NCBI RefSeq assembly: GCF_005222225.1
Contig: NZ_CP036536.1
Coordinates: forward strand, 2,690,001 to 2,754,000
From: Salinimonas lutimaris
GTDB lineage: Bacteria; Pseudomonadota; Gammaproteobacteria; Enterobacterales; Alteromonadaceae
Length of the DNA: 64,000 bases
Direction of reading: 5' to 3'
Below, piece after piece: positions 46,904 through 59,014 of this stretch. The translations under genes and the position numbers were made by a program. The notes under the pieces were generated by a model. It searched no databases, was not told the DNA's origin, and was given only the letters and a program-made list of their open reading frames with translations. The number at the start of each line of letters is the position of its first letter. Position 1 is the stretch's first letter.

Positions 46904-47654
46904 GCTTTGACTACTGCACGCCTGCAACACGTCGTTAAGCTGCTTATTGTCAATAAGATGAACATAGTATGCTTTACTACTTGCAACACCCAGACTGGGT
47001 ACAGTCATCAGACACTGAGATAGCACCAGTGTACTGAACATAATAGCTTACCCACTTTTTATTATTCACAAGATAGTCTCCAATCTATCTATAAAAAGAG
47101 TGGCGATCACATCAAGATAATGTATCTTCCAGCAAACTTATCATTAATATTTATTATTTTTTATATTTATTGTAGACACTTAGTATATCCAGTTCTGTTA
47201 TTCAACTCTCACTACTTATAGTTTTACCTTTAAAAACTGCCTCTCCATGATGTCAGCTACGAAAACATGCCCGAGCATTAGGACATTTTATATAATGTAT
47301 AAGCTAAGTTAGCTATTCAGAGTAGAACAACTCATAGTTTTTAAATTATTTCCATGGGGGACCAAAAAAGCAGAAACAAATTTTAGTGATTTTGGCTGTT
47401 TGCTTATCATTTAACTACCGTCAATTTATTATACATGCCAATCTATTATTTCTATCGTTGCGAACCAGAAATACGATTACCTCATGGCATGACACTTAAA
47501 GATTTCTTGTAAAAAAATCCCATTAAAAAGAACTACCTTTTTAGATATAACTATATGTTTCGTAAATTTAAAAATGTTTAATCTTATAGTGAACGATAGT
47601 CATTTTCTTAGAGTAGTAACTGTGATTTCAAATAAGAATATGAGGGAATATACT
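46904..47654. other. AT-rich left border of the accessory region
   Basis: These 750 bases of AT-rich DNA have no gene I recognise. They mark a clear change from balanced composition to AT-rich DNA. No tRNA, integrase or direct repeat that would mark an insertion point was seen. Confidence 0.4.
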
Positions 47655-49721
47655 ATGTCAGAATCGTTTAAATATGATGGTCAGAAAGGACACGGAGGCG
47701 AGGTGCATCAGACTCCGGAAGCAGCGGACCAGATTATGACGACTGCGCAGGGCTGCCCTGTGCATGATGACCAAAATTCACTAAAAGCGGGAAAGCACGG
47801 ACCTACGTTATTGGAAGACCATATAATGCGGGAAAAGATCTTCCACTTCGATCATGAGCGTATACCAGAGCGCGTTGTGCATGCCCGGGGTTATGGAGCC
47901 CATGGCTACTTTGAAACCTACGATAATTTTTCTGATCTGACTTGCGCAGATTTATTCCAGCGAAAAGGTGAACAAACACCGGTATTTACACGATTTTCAA
48001 CGGTGGCCGGTAATATGGGGTCACCTGATGTGGCCCGCGATGTACGTGGTTTTGCGGTTAAGTTTTATACAAAGGAAGGAAACTGGGATCTTGTTGGCAA
48101 CAACATACCAGTGTTTTTTATCCAGGATGCGATGAAGTTTCCAGACCTTATTCACGCTGCGAAACAGGAACCTGACCGAGGTTTTCCTCAAGCCCAGACA
48201 GCACATGATAACTTTTGGGATTTTGCAAGTCTTTCGCCCGAATCCGTGCACATGCTGATGTGGGCGATGTCCGACAGAGCAATACCACGCTCCTACAGAT
48301 TCATGGAAGGATTCGGCGTTCATACCTTTAAATTTGTTAACAGTGCGGGCGAAGAGAAATACGTAAAATTTCACTGGAAGCCAAAATCAGGTTTGCAATC
48401 TGTGGTCTGGAATGAAGCCCTGAAAATTAACGGTGCCGATCCCGATTTTCACCGTCGTGATTTGTGGAACGCTATTGAGTCTGGTGACTACCCTGAGTGG
48501 GAGTTGGGCGTTCAGGTTTTTGATCAGTCATTTGCTGATCAGTTCGAATTTGATGTGTTTGACTCAACAAAACTTATTCCGGAAGAACAGGTTCCGGTAC
48601 AAAAAATTGGCAAAATGGTATTGAATCGAATGGTCGACAATTTTTTTGCTGAGACAGAGCAGGTAGCATTCTGTACTCAGAACATTGTCCCTGGTATCGA
48701 TTTCACCCCAGATCCGCTTTTACAAGGGCGTAACTTTTCATATCTTGATACACAGACAAAACGTCTTGGGGGCCCTAATTTTACGCATATCCCTATCAAT
48801 GCTCCTCAATGTCCTATGCGTCACTTCCAGCAAGATGGGCATATGGCTATGCATAACCCGAAAGGCCGCGTGAACTACGAACCTAATTCCTGGCCGCGTG
48901 ACGAATACAATCCCCGGGCCTGTCCTGCTCACGGATATAAAAGTAGTTCAGAGGCTATCGAAGGTGACAAGTTAAGATACCGCTCTGAGACATTCGCTGA
49001 TCATTACAGCCAGGCTTTGCAATTTTACAAAAGCCAGACACCAGTTGAACAGCTCCATATTCAGGACGCTTTTGTGTTTGAGCTATCAAAAGTACAGACC
49101 CCGGCTATCCGCGAACGTGTTGTTTCACATCTATTGAATGTTGATGAAGCACTTGCGAAAGGTGTTGCTGAAGGTTTAGGCCTTACAACTTTGCCTCAAA
49201 AAGCTGAAGCAGCTATGGAAACGCGTACTGATCTGAAGCCTTCTGATGCTTTGAGTATTATTAAAAATGCACCAGAGTCTTTCAAAGGCAGAAAACTGGG
49301 CATCTTTTGCTGTGACGGGGCAGACGATGATGTACTGGAGAGTCTAATAAATAGCATTCGGGCAGAAGGCGCTATGGTAGAGATTGTGGCTCCGACTATA
49401 TATGGCATAACTACCCGCGATGGCAAACGTATTGAAGGACAGCAAAAAATAGATGGGGGTCCATCAGTGCTTTACGATGCTGTAGCGCTTGTTCTTGCAA
49501 AAGAAAAAGCCGACGAAGTTGCTGCTATTCCGCAAGCAAAAGACTTTGTTACAGATGCCCATGCGCACAGCAAATTTATTATTTATAACGAAGAAGCTAT
49601 GCCTCTGATCAAAGAAGCAAATTTGGAAGATAAAATGGATGCAGGTTATCTATCAACATTGAAAGCGGATAGTGATGCTATTGTCCGGCAGTTGCGTGCA
49701 CTACGTTTTTGGGAGCGGTAA
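47655..49721 (+). CDS. katE: Large-subunit catalase (HPII type) with C-terminal flavodoxin-like domain
   Basis: This 688-residue haem catalase detoxifies hydrogen peroxide. The catalytic histidine is in [17 protein letters not shown], the asparagine region in [20 protein letters not shown], and the haem-ligand tyrosine in [15 protein letters not shown]. After residue 540 the extra domain of large catalases begins, [23 protein letters not shown] 47655 is chosen over the frame to 47574 because GAGGG precedes it. KatE enzymes are usually stationary-phase or stress induced, like the DUF421 and YghA-like genes further right. A hairpin follows the stop. Confidence 0.95.
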
Positions 49722-49768: not shown

Positions 49769-51277
49769 ATGATGAGCTTATCGACTCGAATTGCTGTAAT
49801 TGGAAGCGGCCCTGCAACCGTTTACTTCCTTTACAACTTATTTCGCAAAGGTGCGTTGTCACTGCCTATCTCGATTTTCGAAGCTAGCCAGTCCCCCGGG
49901 CGCGGAACGCCATACAGCGCGGAAAATACAGGTAAAGCTTTATTGTCAAACCTGGCAGCGAATGAAGTTCCGGACCTATTGATGCCTTTTACGCAGTGGT
50001 GTGCTCACAATCATATTGAGCAAACTGGAACACAAGTTCCCCGCTATTTATTAGGGCAATATTTTCAATGGAATTTTTTTGCGTTGCTCAGTCGTTTTGA
50101 ACATGTGCAATGTTTTGCAGAATGCAAGGTTATCGATATACGACAATCAGGAGAGTATTATTTAGTAAAAACAAATGCTGGTTGTTTCTCACGCTTTACC
50201 CACCTAGTCGTCAATACCGGTCATACCGGGCAAATTGTTCAGTTTGATGACGCTAAACCTGCTTATCCTTTGATTGAATCTGTAGCAACGCGCTATAAAA
50301 ATTATCATTTAATTGGTAGTTCAATGAGCGCTGTAGATTGCTGTATTCGCGCAGCGGAATTATTTGGTGAATTTAAAAACAACAACAACAGCCTGGTATT
50401 TAACCCACGAGAAAGTTTTTCTGTCACTATGTATTCCCCTTCCGGGACCCTCCCTCATTTGTTTTACTACAGTTGCAACTTTGCCACATCTATTGAAACC
50501 GGCTTTAATAAGCTATTAGGCAATGCATGGCAGGAAACTAACGTACTGAATCTGGAGAGTTTGTATAGTAAAGTATGCAAGCCGCTAATAGCGGAGCATT
50601 GTTGTACTCTGTACCAACAAGTTGCTGGTTTAACATTACAACAGACTATCAGATTTATCTGCAATACGGATGAACCGTTTGAGGGCCAATACAAGCTTAA
50701 AATAGCGTTGATCGCGCATGATCCAGAATATGGTAAGTTTCAGGCTATCATAGAAGCTTTTTGCGACAACCTTTATAGAGTTTCTACCTATTTATCGTCT
50801 AACGACCAATATTTTTACTATGATAAACTGTACCCATTTTTAGCCAAAGTCAATGGGGCTCTACCACGGGCATCAGCGTTGAAACTCTGTGCGCTTATCG
50901 AAGCTGGAAACCTGAAAATAGTACGTAAAAAAATTGATTCTGTACCTACTCCCTCTGCTGGACATCGCTGGATTGACTGCAGCGGTTCAACTTCATACCA
51001 AATACCTAGTTTATTAAACTGGCTAATAAACCATAAAACCATAGTACTTTATACTCATTTAAACGACAAAAAGCCTGTAAGCATTAAAGTCAATAATCAT
51101 TACCAAGTGATAAATCATCATTGTGAAGAAGAAAATATTTACATTGGCTCTGCTCAGCTATTGAACGAAAAACTTCTTACTTTGCCTGGGCTGGAACTGT
51201 CTAGCCGTATTTCAAGTGTTATTGTCGAAAAGATCATTAAGTATTATTCGAACGATGTATCTGCATATTCGCAATAA
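49769..51277 (+). CDS. FAD/NAD(P)-binding protein
   Basis: This 502-residue protein has an N-terminal dinucleotide fold (IAVIGSGPATVYFLYNLFRK) and a conserved SPGRGTPYS stretch of the NAD_binding_9 type. LIGSSMSAVDCC is a second dinucleotide site. Such proteins are flavin-dependent oxidoreductases of mostly unknown substrate, some close to N-hydroxylases. It follows katE by 47 bases but across a hairpin. The glycosyltransferase/YcgG/DUF1989 operon follows 212 bases later, so a shared pathway is possible. There are two ATGs in a row (49769, 49772), and the first is annotated. Confidence 0.75.
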   Translation: MMSLSTRIAVIGSGPATVYFLYNLFRKGALSLPISIFEASQSPGRGTPYSAENTGKALLSNLAANEVPDLLMPFTQWCAHNHIEQTGTQVPRYLLGQYFQWNFFALLSRFEHVQCFAECKVIDIRQSGEYYLVKTNAGCFSRFTHLVVNTGHTGQIVQFDDAKPAYPLIESVATRYKNYHLIGSSMSAVDCCIRAAELFGEFKNNNNSLVFNPRESFSVTMYSPSGTLPHLFYYSCNFATSIETGFNKLLGNAWQETNVLNLESLYSKVCKPLIAEHCCTLYQQVAGLTLQQTIRFICNTDEPFEGQYKLKIALIAHDPEYGKFQAIIEAFCDNLYRVSTYLSSNDQYFYYDKLYPFLAKVNGALPRASALKLCALIEAGNLKIVRKKIDSVPTPSAGHRWIDCSGSTSYQIPSLLNWLINHKTIVLYTHLNDKKPVSIKVNNHYQVINHHCEEENIYIGSAQLLNEKLLTLPGLELSSRISSVIVEKIIKYYSNDVSAYSQ

Positions 51278-51431: not shown

Positions 51432-51446
51432 TGGCAGAAACATTGC
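51432..51446 (+). promoter_or_regulatory. Sigma-54-like promoter before the GT/YcgG/DUF1989 operon
   Basis: TGGCAG-N5-TTGC, followed by T, has exact -24/-12 spacing with the invariant GG and GC. It is one mismatch from TGGCAC-N5-TTGC and lies 44 bases before the glycosyltransferase start. Confidence 0.55.
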
Positions 51447-51489
51447 TCTATCAACAGGTAATTAGCAATATTTTATTCGGAGCCATGTG

Positions 51490-52356
51490 ATGCAGGTAAG
51501 CTTATTCACCCTTGTAAAAAATCGTACCGAACAATTACAAAATCTGATAACGCACTTGGAAAAATGCTCTCCTCTACCAGATGAACTAAACGTCATCTGG
51601 ATGCGACCTCCTTGTGAACTTTCACTCATAAAGTCTACATATTTCACTATCAACCATAAATTTATGACAGAAGATGCATTACCTATTTTCCGAGCGAAGA
51701 ATAAGGGATTGGATTCTGCTAAATATACTTTAGTTGGGCATATTGGTGTTGACGTATTACCGTCATTTGACTTTATTTCTAAACACCTAAAGACCACAAA
51801 GCCAGGCTCTGTATCGGTGTCTTCTTCTTATATATCGGTAAAAGAAAAAGATTTATATCTGGGTTATAAAAATCTGGAAGATACTTTCTTAAAGAATAAT
51901 CTGGACTTTATTCCCAGCAATACTACTGGTGATATTCAAAATAGCTCATTATTTTTTATTCATCGTGAAGATATTAAAAAAGTGGGCGGATATGATGAAA
52001 ATCTAGGCGGTTTTGGCATTAATGACGATGATTTTTTCAGACAATGTAAAGAGGCCGAATTAAAGTTAGAAAGAGTCGCTGATCGGACGTTTTGTCAGTA
52101 TCGCGCTAATTATTTCTGCCCCGTGAATCATTTACTGGATTTTACCCATAATGCCTCCTTGTTTCACAAGAAATGGGGAGCATTCCCTGAAGTACATATT
52201 CTTGAAACATTTGCTCAAAAAGGCTTTATTAATGAGGATTTCAAAATCTCAGGTATACATATTGTGCGTATGCCAACCCAACATGAAGTCAATCAATCTG
52301 TTAGAGATGCAGTATCTGATAATTTGCCAGCATCCACACTAGAGGTTGCCGTATGA
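51490..52356 (+). CDS. Family 2 glycosyltransferase, copy 1
   Basis: The 288 residues have a GT-A fold starting VSLFTLVKNRTEQLQNLITH and a galactosyltransferase-like acceptor region (KKVGGYDENLGGFGINDDDF). The C-terminal block NASLFHKKWGAFPEVHILE is shared with the glycosyltransferase at 58178-59014, so the two are paralogues. ATG 51490 is chosen, with GGAG seven bases upstream; GTG 51487 is an in-frame alternative. Its stop overlaps the next start by four bases. Acceptor unknown. Confidence 0.8.
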   Translation: MQVSLFTLVKNRTEQLQNLITHLEKCSPLPDELNVIWMRPPCELSLIKSTYFTINHKFMTEDALPIFRAKNKGLDSAKYTLVGHIGVDVLPSFDFISKHLKTTKPGSVSVSSSYISVKEKDLYLGYKNLEDTFLKNNLDFIPSNTTGDIQNSSLFFIHREDIKKVGGYDENLGGFGINDDDFFRQCKEAELKLERVADRTFCQYRANYFCPVNHLLDFTHNASLFHKKWGAFPEVHILETFAQKGFINEDFKISGIHIVRMPTQHEVNQSVRDAVSDNLPASTLEVAV

Positions 52357-53021
52357 TCTCTTTAATAGAATCTCCTGATGATGCCATTTCACAATTTGTA
52401 CAGCAGCCTGGTTTTCCGTGTGCAGGGGCGAAAACGGCGTTAAATCGGGAACAGATTCATAGTTATCGATTTGGTGAACTCGATGATGCAAGTGATAACT
52501 TAGATATCTTGCACCATCTATATACGTTCATTAATGGTTTCAACCTTAATGAGCATATGTACTCTTCGTTTGTTTGTATATTTGATGGTCCCTATGACTA
52601 CACAGAACGCTATTATGAAAAGCTATTGTGGAATAAGCTTCAGCAACTTCATAATATCGACTCAAGGTTGCATAGCTGGGATAGTGGTGTAAGCAATAAC
52701 CCGGAAGATGATAACTTTAGTTTTAGTCTGGGGGGACAGGCATTTTTTATAATATGTCTGAACCCGGCCAGTCGTCGAAAAAGCCGCAGGTTTGAATTTC
52801 CCGCTATTGTATTTAATCTTCACCAGCAGTTTGAACACCTGAGAGAACAAAATAAATTTGATGCATTTCAGCATCATATACGCCAGCAAGACAAAATTTT
52901 TAACGGAACAGAAAATCCAATGCTACAAGATCACGGTAGTGATTCCGAGGCACGACAATATAGCGGCCGTTTGCTGGAATCTAACTGGCAATGCCCATTT
53001 CATGTTAATAAGGACAAGTAA
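52353..53021 (+). CDS. YqcI/YcgG-family protein, haem-dependent N-oxygenase-like
   Basis: The 222 residues carry the family landmarks FPCAGAKTAL near the N-terminus, FSFSLGGQAFFIICLNPASR and FPAIVFNLHQQFEHLR in the middle, and ARQYSGR then WQCPFH at the end. The family includes GntA, which N-hydroxylates a guanidino amino acid in guanitoxin synthesis. Most members are uncharacterised, so guanidine or amine N-oxidation is a family-level inference. It overlaps the upstream glycosyltransferase by four bases and is followed by the DUF1989 gene after four bases, so the three are translated together. Confidence 0.82.
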   Translation: MISLIESPDDAISQFVQQPGFPCAGAKTALNREQIHSYRFGELDDASDNLDILHHLYTFINGFNLNEHMYSSFVCIFDGPYDYTERYYEKLLWNKLQQLHNIDSRLHSWDSGVSNNPEDDNFSFSLGGQAFFIICLNPASRRKSRRFEFPAIVFNLHQQFEHLREQNKFDAFQHHIRQQDKIFNGTENPMLQDHGSDSEARQYSGRLLESNWQCPFHVNKDK

Positions 53022-53025
53022 AAAA

Positions 53026-53607
53026 ATGACACACACTATCTTGCCAAGAAGCGGAACCGCATTTGAATTAAAGCAGGGTCAAAAGCTCGTAGTTATTGAT
53101 CCGCAAGGAGAACAGGTCGCTGACTTGTACTCTCTCAATAGCTATAATCATAACGAATACCTGTCGTCAGGCCGGTCCCTTGATTATAATGAAAGCATTA
53201 AATTTGGTAAGGGATCTTTATTATACTCAAATCAGAGTAATATTATGTTCGAAATCATCGAAGACACTGTTGAAGATCACGATTTTTTACTTACTCCTTG
53301 TAGCAAAGATACGTTCAGACACTTTTATCCTGAGGAAGAACCTGTCCCAGGTTGCCATGGTAATCTGGTCGCAGCGTTTGCTGAGTTTGGTATTCCAGAG
53401 CACCTGATCAATACCACGTTTAATACTTTTATGAATGTGGATATTAATGAAACCGGAAAAATATCTGTACTCCCTCCCACCAGTAAAGCGGGCGACAGAA
53501 CTGTATTTGAAGCAAAAATGGATATGATTGTCGGGTTGACAGCTTGCTCAGCCGGGGAATCGAATAACTTCAAATATAAGCCAATTCAATATAAAATCGT
53601 CGACTGA
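53026..53607 (+). CDS. DUF1989 / urea carboxylase-associated family protein
   Basis: The 193 residues have an N-terminal GTAFELKQGQKLVVIDPQGE, QVADLYSLN (a typical family strand), DFLLTPCSKDTFRHF, a middle NTTFNTFMNVDINETGKI and the C-terminal LTACSAGESNNFKYKPIQY. Two members of this family (CgdA/CgdB) form carboxyguanidine deiminase beside urea/guanidine carboxylase. Here there is no carboxylase and only one copy, next to a YcgG-family gene, so a different guanidino or amine reaction is possible. ATG 53026 is chosen over the frame starting at 52858, which overlaps the previous gene. Confidence 0.82.
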   Translation: MTHTILPRSGTAFELKQGQKLVVIDPQGEQVADLYSLNSYNHNEYLSSGRSLDYNESIKFGKGSLLYSNQSNIMFEIIEDTVEDHDFLLTPCSKDTFRHFYPEEEPVPGCHGNLVAAFAEFGIPEHLINTTFNTFMNVDINETGKISVLPPTSKAGDRTVFEAKMDMIVGLTACSAGESNNFKYKPIQYKIVD

Positions 53608-54415: not shown

Positions 54416-54571
54416 ATGACACTAATTAGTTACGAAAAGCTAAAAGCAGAAGTGGCCAAAACTGAGCATTTATTATCCATCATTCCACATTGGAAGGTGA
54501 GTGAAAAACTGCGCCTTAAACTACGTGTAAAACAAATGAAAGGCTTACTTAACACAAGGAACCAATCATGA
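54416..54571 (+). CDS. Small basic 51-residue protein leading a glycosyltransferase operon
   Basis: ATG 54416 follows the strong ribosome site GGAGGG. The stop overlaps the next ATG in an ATGA junction, so the gene is real by coupling even though I do not recognise it. It is lysine- and arginine-rich, helical in look, starting MTLISYEKLKAEVAKTEHLL and ending LLNTRNQS, with several Ser/Thr and no cysteine. There is no signal peptide or membrane segment. It could be a scaffold, a regulator or a peptide substrate for the enzymes encoded after it. Confidence 0.6.
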   Translation: MTLISYEKLKAEVAKTEHLLSIIPHWKVSEKLRLKLRVKQMKGLLNTRNQS

Positions 54572-55137
54572 ATCATCAAGTTATTACCGGCATTTTTGTA
54601 ACTTACGAGATGAACCTGGGCATTCTAAAAAATCTAAAGAATTTTTTAGAAGGGTTTCCCCATTCAACAGCAGTGGTTGTCGATAATTCTTCACGTTCCT
54701 ACAAGAAAAAACATCGACTGGATAAACAGCTCAAAGCATTATCTAACCAGATTATCTATGTTAACCATGAACAGAATTGTCGTCTGCGGGCATATAGTAA
54801 AGGAATTGCCTATTGCAATGACGGATACGTGGTATTCAGAACTGACGACGATTATTTCGATGAGCGTTCACTTGCCGTACAGCTGGATGTGACAGGTTGG
54901 CCAGATCTGGCTGTGACTCCGCACTTTTACGATGGTTTATTCGAGAACCCAGAAAGCTGGGAACGTCCTCTTGAAACAATGGTATTTAAAGCAGCGCTAT
55001 TACACTCTTTGTGTCCGATGCAGCACACGCCTGGTGGAGACTGGCGCTTTTTGAAAAAAGCATTTGAATCCTATACCCCCCACAGAATGAACGATGCAGT
55101 ATTGCACAAACGACCGCATGGACGATCGGTAGCATGA
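54568..55137 (+). CDS. Small GT-A glycosyltransferase-like protein
   Basis: This 189-residue protein starts ITGIFVTYEMNLGILKNL with a nucleotide-sugar-binding fold pattern, has VVVDNSS, and a DxD-type motif in FRTDDDYFDE. It is shorter than most family 2 glycosyltransferases and may be a minimal catalytic domain. The start overlaps the small upstream gene and the stop overlaps the next gene (ATGA). The sugar and acceptor are unknown. Confidence 0.7.
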   Translation: MNHQVITGIFVTYEMNLGILKNLKNFLEGFPHSTAVVVDNSSRSYKKKHRLDKQLKALSNQIIYVNHEQNCRLRAYSKGIAYCNDGYVVFRTDDDYFDERSLAVQLDVTGWPDLAVTPHFYDGLFENPESWERPLETMVFKAALLHSLCPMQHTPGGDWRFLKKAFESYTPHRMNDAVLHKRPHGRSVA

Positions 55138-56153
55138 AAATAGCGGTTATCGCTCACCCCCGATTTCCTATTGCAATGCCTTATGCCGGAGGGCTTGAGG
55201 CATTTGTAGCATCTTTGCTAGATAGTTATAGTCGGTTTGCTGAAGTTTACGTCTATGCGCATCCTGCAAGCAAAGTCGATGGTAAACTTGTTTCCTTTCC
55301 TTTTGATACAGAGGCCCATTCCAAATTTCCTGAAATTGTAGAAAACGACTTTCTGCTAAAGGTGATGGCAGATATTTCTAAGCGAAACATTGATGTTGTT
55401 CATAACAATGCAATTAGTTCAATTCCCCCACTATGGGCTGCCAAATATAATATTCCACTTCTCACTACTTTACATACACCGCCCTATAGCAAGCTTAAAG
55501 CTGCTGCAGAACTGGCCTCCTATGCGCCAAATGTGCACTACAATGCCGTGTCGTATTCAGTTGCAGAACAATGGCGTCCGTTTTTGAACGATGATATTGA
55601 TGTTATTTATAATGGGATTGATTTATCTCGTTGGAGCTCAAGAAAAACAAATCCCGAATACGTCTTCTCATTCGGCCGGATTTTACCTTCTAAAGGGTTT
55701 GACCTGGCTATCCAGTGTGCCAATCAACTAGGGGTAGATTTCAAGTTTGCCGGTCCGGTATTTGATCAGCATTACTTCGATAAATCAATAGCGCCGCTGC
55801 TAAATGACCGGGTGACCTATCTTGGCCATTTAACTCATGATTCGATTAATTCTTATCTGCTTAAAGCACAGGCCGCTATTTTTGCGGCTCGTTGGGATGA
55901 ACCATTTGGCCTTTCTACTGTTGAAGCCATGGCTACTGGTACACCTGTTGCGGCATTCAGACGTGGCGCATTTCCCGAGGTCGTAGCAGAATCAGGTGGA
56001 CGGCTCGCCAGCGGTAATAATGTATCAAGCCTGACAGAAGCATTAAGCAAAACACTTTCGTGTCATCAAGATGATGTATTAGATCGAGCTGCTCAGTTTC
56101 CTCTGGAAAAAATGTGCAGTCAGTATCAGCAAAAATTAATAGGGATGATATGA
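55134..56153 (+). CDS. Family 4 glycosyltransferase, copy 1
   Basis: The 339 residues have the GT-B fold: an N-terminal YAGGLEAFVASLLDSY, the mid-protein DVIYNGIDLSRW and SFGRILPSKGFDLAI, and the donor-binding EPFGLSTVEAMATGTPVAAF with the E-x7-E pattern. It is a retaining-type cytosolic transferase. The next gene is a clear paralogue (shared GG-EAFV, V-I-NGI-L, EPFGL-T-EA---GTPV). It overlaps its neighbours by four bases each. Confidence 0.85.
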   Translation: MKIAVIAHPRFPIAMPYAGGLEAFVASLLDSYSRFAEVYVYAHPASKVDGKLVSFPFDTEAHSKFPEIVENDFLLKVMADISKRNIDVVHNNAISSIPPLWAAKYNIPLLTTLHTPPYSKLKAAAELASYAPNVHYNAVSYSVAEQWRPFLNDDIDVIYNGIDLSRWSSRKTNPEYVFSFGRILPSKGFDLAIQCANQLGVDFKFAGPVFDQHYFDKSIAPLLNDRVTYLGHLTHDSINSYLLKAQAAIFAARWDEPFGLSTVEAMATGTPVAAFRRGAFPEVVAESGGRLASGNNVSSLTEALSKTLSCHQDDVLDRAAQFPLEKMCSQYQQKLIGMI

Positions 56154-57178
56154 AAATTTTGCTTGTGACAAGTCCGGTTGTAGATCTTCGTCAGCCCTTT
56201 GCCGGTGGTACAGAAGCATTTGTTGTAAGACTGGCGAATGGCCTTGCCAGGCGGGGTCACATTGTAGATGTGCTATGTCAGTCCAGCGACGAAACAAATC
56301 TATTTACCAGTTTGCATATTAATGAGTCTGCTCTACGCATGTGTGACGCTATCACCAGTGAGAAAATAGGACAGAAACAGTATCAAGCTGCTCAGTTTGG
56401 TTTACTTGATAGTGATGAGTACGATGTTATTCACTACCATAGCTATTATCATGCGATTTATGACTACGGTTTTTTACATCAGCGCCAAGCTGTGATTACC
56501 CTCCATAGTCCAGTTACCCCGCGGTTAGCACTGTTACACCAACTGCACCGAGCCCGCTCTAACGATATTTACGTTGCCGTGTCTCAGCGCTTAGCTACAC
56601 GATGGGAGCATCAAATAGGCGGTGATATCCGGGTTATCGCAAACGGTATTGAACTTAATCAACACACTGACATTATGGTAGAAGAAAATTACTATTTATG
56701 GTCTGGACGTATATGCAGTGTTAAAAATCCTGCTTTAGCGATTCAATGGGCAAAGCATCATAACCTGAAACTGAAATTAGTCGGTCCAATTGCTGATGAG
56801 GACTATTTCTTATCTTATATTAAACCCTTTCTAGATGAGCATATTACCTATGCCGGACATGTAGACCAGTCGGAACATATAGAGTTACTCAGGGGTGCCC
56901 GTGCATTATTTATGACTTCCGATTGGGAAGAGCCATTCGGGTTGGTCACTCTGGAAGCATTGAATGAAGGTACTCCTGTCATCGGTGTTGGCAACGCTAT
57001 TGTTGAAGAACTCCGAGTTTCTCCCATGGTCCAGATTGTTGATGACTGCCTCACTATTACTCGGTGTTTAACAGAACTTGAACACATTAGTGCGAAACAG
57101 TGCCGGCAAGTCGCCGAAAAATTTGACTTTGCCCATACACTTAATCAGTACGAGGAGCTTTATGCCTCACTTCAATAA
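56150..57178 (+). CDS. Family 4 glycosyltransferase, copy 2
   Basis: The 342 residues start MKILLVTSPVVDLRQPFAGG and carry VIANGIELNQ, LWSGRICSVKNPALAIQWA and EEPFGLVTLEALNEGTPVIG, the standard GT4 donor site. Tandem duplication with copy 1 is likely. ATG 56150 is chosen because it makes the ATGA overlap. The longer frame to 56114 runs back into the upstream gene. Confidence 0.85.
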   Translation: MKILLVTSPVVDLRQPFAGGTEAFVVRLANGLARRGHIVDVLCQSSDETNLFTSLHINESALRMCDAITSEKIGQKQYQAAQFGLLDSDEYDVIHYHSYYHAIYDYGFLHQRQAVITLHSPVTPRLALLHQLHRARSNDIYVAVSQRLATRWEHQIGGDIRVIANGIELNQHTDIMVEENYYLWSGRICSVKNPALAIQWAKHHNLKLKLVGPIADEDYFLSYIKPFLDEHITYAGHVDQSEHIELLRGARALFMTSDWEEPFGLVTLEALNEGTPVIGVGNAIVEELRVSPMVQIVDDCLTITRCLTELEHISAKQCRQVAEKFDFAHTLNQYEELYASLQ

Positions 57179-58181
57179 AACTTTACTGTACTATGTTCAC
57201 CCTCACGGAATGGGACATTTACAACGTGCACGCCAATTGATCCCGGTACTTGCAGAGCAATATAATATTGTACTATGTACTGCTTCACAGGCTATGAAAA
57301 TAAAAATTACCGAGCTATTCGGGTCACTACCCTGCCATATCCTTCCATCAAAATGGCCCGGGCAGGTCATACCTACTGAGCGCCAATATAATGCTGCTTT
57401 TGAAGGTATAAGCTGGTGTAGCGAAGCTACAGAGCGCGCGGCTTTTTTTGTCAACCTCCTGCAACGCTATAAAGTTGATTTGTTTATTAGTGATGTTTCA
57501 GCCGAGCTTACTATTCTTGCAAGAGGTGCTGGCATACCTGTGTTGATGCAACGTCATTCTGGTAGCATTTCAAACGATCCGACCCAGGTCTTTGCCTATC
57601 AAAGTGCTGCAGCCTTGTTTGCACCCTACCCAAAAGAGGTGGAAACCGCAGGCTATGAATTCGAACATAAAACGCGCTACCTGGGTTTTTCGTCACCCAA
57701 CCAACTTAAAGCCCCCTGTTCTGGAAAGGGCATGACATTTATCACTGCGAACAAAGAACATCTGGTTGGCTGGCTTACCTGTATTGAACCGATTCATGGT
57801 CCGTTGACCGCAATTGGGTGTGAAATCAACTATCCGGACGTCGAGTGTGTAGGCTATGTAAATGATATCAGCCAGTATATTACTACTGACATCGTCGCCT
57901 GTAGTGCCGGAAACAATATGATAAGCGAACTTCTTACTTTAAATAAAAAACTTATTCTTATTCCTGAACCAAGACCCTATGACGAACAACATGCTAAAGC
58001 TCAGGCACTGGCTGCCCAGCATCAGGCGGTGGTACTAAATCCTGCTGAGGCACAAACGAGTACTGAAGCCTGGGAAAAAGCAATTTGCGCTGTCACCAGT
58101 GAGATCGGTAGTCCGCCTGCTGCTTGGCTCAATCAGAATAGCGGAGCAACTTTTGTGCAATTGGTGAAGACCATCATATGA
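57162..58181 (+). CDS. GT-B glycosyltransferase, MurG/UGT-like
   Basis: The 339 residues begin with LLYYVHPHGMGHLQRARQLI, the GxGHxxRA pattern of MurG- and UDP-glycosyltransferase-like enzymes, then DLFISDVSAELTILARGAGI, and end with a donor domain containing VACSAGNNMISELL and PEPRPYDEQHAKAQAL. It overlaps the previous gene by 17 bases, with GAGGAG before ATG 57162. It is the fourth transferase of the operon. Confidence 0.8.
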   Translation: MPHFNKTLLYYVHPHGMGHLQRARQLIPVLAEQYNIVLCTASQAMKIKITELFGSLPCHILPSKWPGQVIPTERQYNAAFEGISWCSEATERAAFFVNLLQRYKVDLFISDVSAELTILARGAGIPVLMQRHSGSISNDPTQVFAYQSAAALFAPYPKEVETAGYEFEHKTRYLGFSSPNQLKAPCSGKGMTFITANKEHLVGWLTCIEPIHGPLTAIGCEINYPDVECVGYVNDISQYITTDIVACSAGNNMISELLTLNKKLILIPEPRPYDEQHAKAQALAAQHQAVVLNPAEAQTSTEAWEKAICAVTSEIGSPPAAWLNQNSGATFVQLVKTII

Positions 58182-59014
58182 ATGACTTTACTTTGATAAC
58201 ATTGGTAAAAGGACGAGCCAAGCAATTAGCTAATTTGCTGGAGGCAGCGACAGCAAGTAATCCCACTCCGTCTGAAATTATTGTAGTAATAATGGATGAT
58301 GCCAGTATTGACTATACAGAGATAAATCATATCAGCGTTCGCTGTATACGTTTGAATGAACCTGTTCTTGCGCTGGCCAAAGCCAGAAACATGGGGGCGC
58401 AAACTGCTTCTAGTGAAAACTTGGTCTTTTTGGATGTGGATTGCATTTGCAGTCCTACCCTCTTTGCCAATCTGCTTTCGCGTCTGACACGTAATAACAT
58501 TGTCTCCGCCCGAGCGCGTTATCTTGACCATGTTCCGGAACACGGAAAATACCAAGAGTTAGCTATTCAGGCGGTAGAACATCCCAAAAGAGCCAGCCTT
58601 CCGGTTGACACTCCTGTACAGTGGAAACATTTCTGGTCGTTGGTCTTTGCTATGAAAAGAAACCATTTCTTCTCCATTGGCGGGTTCGATAGTAACTTCA
58701 GTGGGTACGGTGCCGAGGATACTGACTTTGCTTACCGCCATGACCAGGCTGAAGGCAGGCTGGTTTTTTGTAATGATGAAGTATTACATCAGTATCATAC
58801 AAAATACTCACCGCCGATTAATTATTTAACAGATATTATTCACAACGCCGAGGTGTTTTTTCGTAAACATGGTGTTTTTCCCATGTATGGATGGCTAAAG
58901 CAATTTTCCGAGATGGGATTGATTGTTATTGATACGAAAACAGGTACTATCAGGCTCCGACGCCATCCGACTAACCAAGATTTCGAAAACTGCTTTAGCA
59001 AATCGGTGTACTGA
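58178..59014 (+). CDS. Family 2 glycosyltransferase, copy 2
   Basis: The 278 residues have FTLITLVKGRAKQLANLLEA, a metal-binding VFLDVDCICS, and the C-terminal GGFDSNFSGYGAEDTDFAYR that marks galactosyltransferase-like members. It shares its start and C-terminal NAEVFFRKHGVFPMYGWL with the family 2 enzyme at 51490-52356. It overlaps the previous gene by four bases (ATGA). It is the last gene of the operon before the phytochrome gene. Confidence 0.83.
   Translation: MNDFTLITLVKGRAKQLANLLEAATASNPTPSEIIVVIMDDASIDYTEINHISVRCIRLNEPVLALAKARNMGAQTASSENLVFLDVDCICSPTLFANLLSRLTRNNIVSARARYLDHVPEHGKYQELAIQAVEHPKRASLPVDTPVQWKHFWSLVFAMKRNHFFSIGGFDSNFSGYGAEDTDFAYRHDQAEGRLVFCNDEVLHQYHTKYSPPINYLTDIIHNAEVFFRKHGVFPMYGWLKQFSEMGLIVIDTKTGTIRLRRHPTNQDFENCFSKSVY

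Follow-up and report, generated by a model that had tools for sequence, protein, structure and literature searches.

Enzymes of the YqcI/YcgG family hydroxylate guanidine nitrogen, as reported in the accessible parts of three studies (PMC12866846, PMC10849742, PMC8976061), the first of which describes the six functionally characterised members as acting on arginine derivatives; a paper from 2010, as far as its available text goes, took the conserved cysteine of the family as a peptide anchor (PMC2922099). The family members GntA, AglA, ChmN, DcsA and Mhr24, all haem guanidine N-oxygenases, serve antibiotic or toxin pathways according to the available excerpts of this literature. The second family considered here, DUF1989, includes the carboxyguanidine deiminase CgdAB (UAAP1/UAAP2), which acts on a guanidine derivative (accessible part of PMC11271267); for the trimethylamine N-oxide (TMAO) demethylase Tdm, a DUF1989 enzyme whose substrate contains an N-O bond, zinc cysteines and proposed iron ligands are described in the available sections of PMC12560246. 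Here we analyse a window, meaning the whole stretch of 64 kb taken from the 4.12-Mb single-contig genome of Salinimonas lutimaris, in which a gene for a GntA-type YqcI/YcgG protein of 222 amino acids (gntA; 52353-53021, + strand) is followed after a gap of 4 bases by a gene for a DUF1989 protein of 193 amino acids (53026-53607, + strand); the named close homologues are from Salinimonas and Alteromonas. An earlier sequence-only reading of this DNA had described both as members of one operon with a glycosyltransferase (GT) gene, which overlaps gntA by 4 bases, and we confirm the placement of all three genes on the + strand and, by Pfam, their families. Our comparisons support, with about an even chance of being correct, a model according to which gntA and the DUF1989 gene form a two-gene unit acting in sequence on a guanidino compound, the GT being a separate neighbour and the general-stress sigma factor EcfG controlling the unit in Alphaproteobacteria.

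The YqcI/YcgG protein matches PF08892 with 186.5 bits (cut-off 27) and the NCBIfam GntA model NF041366 with 248.3 bits (cut-off 145). Its AlphaFold model (pLDDT 92.5) has AglA as the top Foldseek match (9ubb; E 5.2e-10, TMq 0.78, sandwich fold), and all five Foldseek matches with E <=0.001 are AglA structures. We aligned an alignment profile of 47 rows, i.e. the window protein and 46 chosen homologues, to AglA, for which the roles of Cys44, Arg166, Phe182 and Arg179 are given in the accessible text of PMC12866846. Cys23, embedded in the sequence PGFPCAGAK, is aligned to the haem ligand Cys44 and is kept in 46/47 rows, the remaining row having a gap at this position, and both Arg145, corresponding to the haem-propionate Arg166, and Phe160, corresponding to Phe182, are kept in 47/47 rows; the further haem-propionate residues of AglA, Lys196 and Arg200, fall beyond the aligned stretch. 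At the position of the substrate-gate Arg179 the window protein has His157, and histidine is found there in 46/47 rows. The predicted fold, the haem cysteine, the propionate arginine and the phenylalanine are common to the window protein and GntA, AglA, ChmN, DcsA and Mhr24; these differ from the situation described here in serving antibiotic or toxin pathways, whereas the window gene has a DUF1989 partner and no such cluster is seen. The sequence-only reading had proposed a YcgG-type haem N-oxygenase paired with DUF1989, naming the haem residues and structure prediction as checks; the kept haem cysteine and the predicted fold agree with this proposal, and the protein is likely a haem enzyme with predicted thiolate ligand Cys23 and a candidate N-oxygenase.

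The DUF1989 protein matches PF09347 with 162 bits (cut-off 27), and its AlphaFold model (pLDDT 95.5) matches 3siy/3oru and 3di4, with a TMq of 0.94-0.95 to 3siy. Within an alignment of 40 rows, i.e. the window protein and 39 chosen homologues, the three cysteines that fall on the zinc cysteines of Tdm (Cys92, Cys110, Cys174) are kept in 40/40 rows, as are Asp33, His85 and Asp86, Asp33 corresponding to Tdm Asp198 at an inferred numbering offset of 22. Judged from this conservation and from the model, the protein is likely a zinc enzyme with a predicted Zn(Cys3) site. It has the DUF1989 domain, the predicted Zn(Cys3) site and the Asp198 equivalent in common with Tdm and differs from it in having no GcvT domain, in carrying Val107 at the position of the proposed iron-ligand histidine, a residue present in 27/40 rows, and in the replacement of the proposed iron-ligand aspartate by Gly177. 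These likenesses bear on an alternative according to which the N-H substrate oxidised by the YcgG protein is a different one, such as an amine, amide or peptide, and the DUF1989 protein acts on the N-oxide as Tdm does. It draws on the DUF1989 profile matching the TMAO demethylase structure 9q59 with an E of 9e-23, on the common cysteines and Asp33, and on a substrate-gate residue unlike that of AglA; the missing iron ligands, a Tdm family model score of only 56.5 bits where 1100 are required, and the arginine derivatives described as substrates of all six characterised YqcI/YcgG enzymes (accessible part of PMC12866846) argue against it, making it a rather unlikely explanation.

CgdAB differs from the protein described here in consisting of two subunits with a guanidine carboxylase encoded in the same operon, according to the available part of PMC12508155, whereas the window protein is the only DUF1989 protein of its genome. 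It remains under the cut-offs of the UAAP1 and UAAP2 models (90.2 vs 284.7 and 71.6 vs 205.95 bits), and no urea-carboxylase-family match over cut-off is found in the genome, in line with the absence of a carboxylase remarked on in the sequence-only reading; we rejected the guanidine-carboxylase route on these grounds. Guanitoxin synthesis was also rejected: GntC, the sole other enzyme of this pathway tested, gives a best score of 200.5 bits versus a cut-off of 415, and it is below cut-off in all 14 control genomes as well. Bacillus subtilis is among the control genomes holding each of the two families, its YqcI/YcgG match being under the GntA cut-off, unlike the window protein. We take B. subtilis ycgG and ycgI to be the name-giving genes of the two families and presumably to lie close together on the chromosome.

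The two genes form a conserved unit. We compared 20 of 21 further places in the genus (G019 was omitted) with flanks of up to ~9 kb per side, and DUF1989 lies directly 3' of gntA in 19/20 of these loci, the remaining one (L023) ending at a contig edge. A search of 398 genomes of the host phylum with PF08892 gave 22 genes in 21 genomes, and DUF1989 adjoins 21/22 of them, the exception being a second gntA copy (L094) in genome G206. The reverse search with the window DUF1989 protein returned 21 strong matches in these 21 genomes, scoring 183.6-436.5 bits, each of them, the window's own included, adjoined by gntA (21/21), after which scores drop to <=94.1 bits in 15 other genomes; gntA is absent from the 1.5-kb flanks of all nine distant DUF1989 loci examined (0/9). 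Apart from the one extra gntA copy, gntA and its close DUF1989 homologue correspond one to one in this sample. Beyond chromosomes, 22 plasmid matches were found, of which 21 were read (H20 was left out) and 14/21 have the pair, the hosts being Sphingomonas, Sphingobium, Novosphingobium, Skermanella, Comamonas and another member of the Comamonadaceae, Hymenobacter, Chryseobacterium and Deinococcus. The DUF1989 partner in Hymenobacter (L043, 6635-7200) matches in two frames and is not annotated, possibly being broken or reflecting a sequencing error. An Armatimonadetes contig carries the pair as well; the scan of genome contigs with the YcgG protein yielded only 2 loci.

Both domains also occur in one chain. 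Of 120 homologues listed for the query P0101 (query included; 3155 matches in total), 56 are of this kind, Nannocystis, Chondromyces and Legionella/Tatlockia being names of fused chains among the matches listed; eight of these sequences were examined. The pair is found adjacent or fused in bacteria of five phyla, including Bacteroidota, Deinococcota, Armatimonadota and Myxococcota. On a gntA tree of 69 rows, 7 of them fused, the fused state requires 4 gains or losses, 3 of which are forced by well-supported branches, and the fusion apparently arose more than once; several branches of this tree are long and placements are partly unsure. On this tree DUF1989 is lacking in both outgroup proteins, in the two Pseudoalteromonas rows, in a group joining Streptomyces and Rahnella, in L094 and in L023 at its contig edge, and among the plasmids the pair is missing from 7/21, i.e. 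two from Streptomyces, one from Rahnella, two from Pseudoalteromonas with a partial YqcI/YcgG match (residues 10-161), and two carrying distant proteins of 25-27% identity. The Rahnella plasmid gntA (L051, 5941-11226) heads a different operon with genes for an SDR protein, a hypothetical protein, a 2Fe-2S protein, a LysE exporter, a PheT-related protein and a MOSC protein, resembling a biosynthetic cluster, and a distant YcgG gene of Rhodoferax (L167, 3923-7864) is followed by genes for an amino acid permease, a 2OG-Fe(II) oxygenase and a LysE transporter.

The third gene of the window behaves differently. It encodes a GT2-type glycosyltransferase (51490-52356, + strand, with ATG at 51490 and GTG at 51487 also possible as start) with the Pfam domains Glyco_tranf_2_2 and Glyco_transf_7C, and the sigma-54-type promoter-like element TGGCAGAAACATTGCT (51432-51447, + strand) lies 5' of it. 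Sigma-54 promoters have the -24/-12 consensus with the core GG-N10-GC, and the window box fits 10/11 consensus positions. Counts of such patterns in the window alone are near chance level (2 found versus 0.74 expected, and 6 versus 4.21 with one mismatch allowed). Across relatives, however, the 150 bases 5' of the aligned start of 30 GT genes (the window's and 29 others) contain a box with a score of >=9/11 in 19/30 cases, compared to 0.21 after shuffling and none on the opposite strand, and of >=8 in 22/30 cases, compared to 0.88 after shuffling and 4 on the opposite strand. Since the box recurs before 19/30 related GT genes and hardly in shuffles, the element noted in the sequence-only reading is real; 9/19 boxed GT loci are without an adjoining gntA, and the box thus belongs with the GT gene. 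Locus L023 has a box at a similar place, and one is found <=200 bases 5' in 3/10 GT-less genus gntA loci, a count that has no separate control.

This separation is also visible in the gene order, for which the sequence-only reading had proposed a comparison across genomes: gntA and DUF1989 stay together and the GT is dissociable. The refuting condition named in that reading, that the three genes seldom occur together, thus strikes the GT and spares the pair. The GT lies directly 5' of gntA in 10/20 further genus loci, i.e. 11/21 with the window, and within 1.5 kb of the pair in 0/19 non-genus loci. The 30 GT loci comprise 16 with the order GT-gntA-DUF1989, one with GT-gntA at the edge of its contig, and 13 where no gntA lies within 1.5 kb and of which some may be paralogues. 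One of these 13 (L104) has the GT followed by only the last 25 DUF1989 codons, at 80% identity, and its genome gives no gntA match, so that the locus apparently holds the remains of a lost pair. We conclude the GT is a separate, sigma-54-linked and lineage-specific neighbour and not part of the conserved pair. The sequence-only reading had included the sugar transferase in the pathway and suggested a glycosylated N-hydroxyguanidine, with the GT decorating the product of the other two enzymes. The close spacing of the three genes and the GT genes directly 5' of the pair in 11/21 genus loci would fit such a product, as would five other GT genes clustered 5' of the pair in L024 and L028 and a glycosyltransferase gene which, on two Comamonas plasmids, lies 3' of the pair; against it stand the 10/21 genus loci having the pair without the GT, the 19 non-genus loci in which the GT was not found within 1.5 kb, the GTs that keep the same box and stand without the pair (allowing for paralogues), and L104, which keeps the GT and merely a remnant of DUF1989. 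We found no evidence for a glycosylated product and regard this explanation as very improbable.

Outside the genus a different promoter motif precedes part of the gntA genes. The sigma-EcfG motif is given as GGAAC-N17-20-GTT in the accessible part of PMC6599016 and as GGAAC-N16-CGTT in that of PMC7083833. We searched the 350 bases before the aligned gntA start in 27 regions for GGAAC-N16-19-GTT, the loci of Bacteroidota, Deinococcus, Streptomyces, Rahnella and the genus having been left out beforehand, and found it in 12/27 regions, the spacer always being 17 or 18 bases long and so within the published range, compared to 0 on the reverse strand, 0 downstream and a mean of 0.37 in dinucleotide shuffles; 15 control regions of the same genome set gave 9 matches in 378,030 strand-bases, i.e. 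0.008 per 350 bases. The box-free regions include L073 and L077, which are of the window's class, and L046 and L056 from Comamonadaceae, so that 12 of the remaining 23 have the box. Of the boxed regions, three are from named Alphaproteobacteria (two Sphingomonas, one Skermanella), the class of the others being inferred. From these motifs we predict the pair to be stress-induced via EcfG in Alphaproteobacteria. In the main texts of the two EcfG-regulon papers, as far as available, neither 'YqcI' nor 'YcgG' occurs (PMC6599016, PMC7083833), and 'DUF' is absent from that of PMC7083833.

Taken together, the data suggest a model of two steps: with a thiolate-bound haem, the YqcI/YcgG protein would hydroxylate an N-H of a guanidino group, and the N-hydroxyguanidine so formed would then be hydrolysed or rearranged at the Zn(Cys3) site of the DUF1989 protein. 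A second step by DUF1989 is suggested because relatives of this protein act on carboxyguanidine or an N-oxide and because the two genes are fused in some cases and elsewhere have no constant companion; it may be a C-N hydrolysis as in the carboxyguanidine deiminase, yielding a ureido product and hydroxylamine or ammonia. As no gene for synthesis, transport or tailoring was seen travelling with the pair in the neighbourhoods examined, the substrate would be a common cell metabolite, arginine or a close relative. EcfG would switch the pair on in Alphaproteobacteria, as the promoter motif suggests, and in the window's genus part of the pair loci stand behind sigma-54-like boxes. A more specific version, which we consider improbable, sees the pair as a stress-related counterpart of nitric oxide synthase (NOS) made up of two proteins, the haem enzyme forming N-hydroxy-arginine and the zinc enzyme converting it to citrulline and hydroxylamine or to a precursor of nitroxyl or nitric oxide; the genome has no NOS and holds one arginase-family protein.

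The same self-contained unit, found among varying neighbours on chromosomes as well as plasmids, would also suit detoxification or salvage of guanidines or amidines that come from outside or are damaged, N-hydroxylation priming cleavage by DUF1989 and the stress control serving damage repair. The stress promoter motif is consistent with this, and other bacteria clear methylguanidine by a dioxygenase and a lyase according to the available part of PMC12508155; no guanidine riboswitch is found in the whole window at Rfam gathering scores, where only cspA matched, and a transporter travelling with the pair was not seen, so we consider this role possible but doubtful.

Several observations weigh against the model of a stress-controlled pair acting in sequence on a guanidino compound. 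The substrate may differ from that of AglA because the gate Arg179 is His157 here, and both proposed Tdm iron ligands, His276 and Asp346, are absent from the window DUF1989 protein. YqcI/YcgG proteins without DUF1989 do occur, namely on two Streptomyces plasmids, in Rahnella and, as two partial matches, in Pseudoalteromonas, to which the two distant proteins and the additional gntA copy of G206 are to be added. The EcfG-type box is missing from 15/27 regions, and the 12 boxed regions are not independent, since five (L074, L075, L079, L080, L094) are from one genus; one of these is the gntA copy without DUF1989 (L094), with its box at -213, and the box of L087 may overlap the start codon. With the looser pattern GGAA[CT]-N16-18-[CT]GTT the count is 8/27, with 1 match in the downstream control, and two genus loci (L034, L038; 2/19) match the EcfG-like pattern, though the genus lies outside the Alphaproteobacteria. 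A Pfam scan of the neighbours covering 138/139 open reading frames (ORFs; 18 loci) and 126/132 control ORFs (17 regions), the omissions being due to length, revealed no stress enrichment among the 138 neighbour ORFs, with 2 YetF, and no widely shared neighbour among the best 25 of 131 families (control: 25 of 130). The stress role thus rests on the promoter motif, as the neighbour scan gave no support.

The three-gene region is AT-rich, with a GC content of 0.36-0.39 compared to ~0.50 over most of the window. Upstream lie a catalase gene (47574-49721, + strand; PF00199, 615.2 bits) and, just before the GT, the gene for an FAD/NAD(P)-binding protein (49769-51277, + strand), which the sequence-only reading had noted and which we identified as NAD_binding_9 (60.1 bits). 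Relatives of both in this order were found only in L023 among the genus loci searched; a catalase neighbour is also annotated on one Comamonadaceae plasmid, the catalase sequence search not having been extended to the remaining non-genus loci. A second glycosyltransferase cluster (54416-59014, + strand), headed by a gene for a conserved protein of 51 amino acids without a Pfam match (54416-54568), lies 3' of the pair in the window and 5' of it in L024 and L028, and a sigma-54-like site is found at -193/-194 before this cluster in the window, L024 and L028.

The sequence-only reading had matched the three genes to no pathway familiar to it, and a pairing of YqcI/YcgG with DUF1989 was not found described among the listings seen from one open-access library, where no query required both names together. 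The two enzyme families have been described before; their pairing, the fusions and the stress promoter appear to be undescribed in the searchable literature. In public annotation 14/22 plasmid matches are listed as gntA, the N-hydroxylase of the guanitoxin pathway, and no other guanitoxin-named gene is listed beside gntA in the stretches read. The label points to guanitoxin, yet in these stretches the gene mostly travels with DUF1989. If the two-gene model is true, the pair would constitute an undescribed branch of arginine or guanidine nitrogen metabolism, could account for one unknown gene of the alphaproteobacterial stress regulon and would provide a testable substrate class for DUF1989 enzymes. 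If the pair were to act as a NOS counterpart, it would mean stress-induced reactive nitrogen, or protected arginine nitrogen, in many bacteria that have no NOS.

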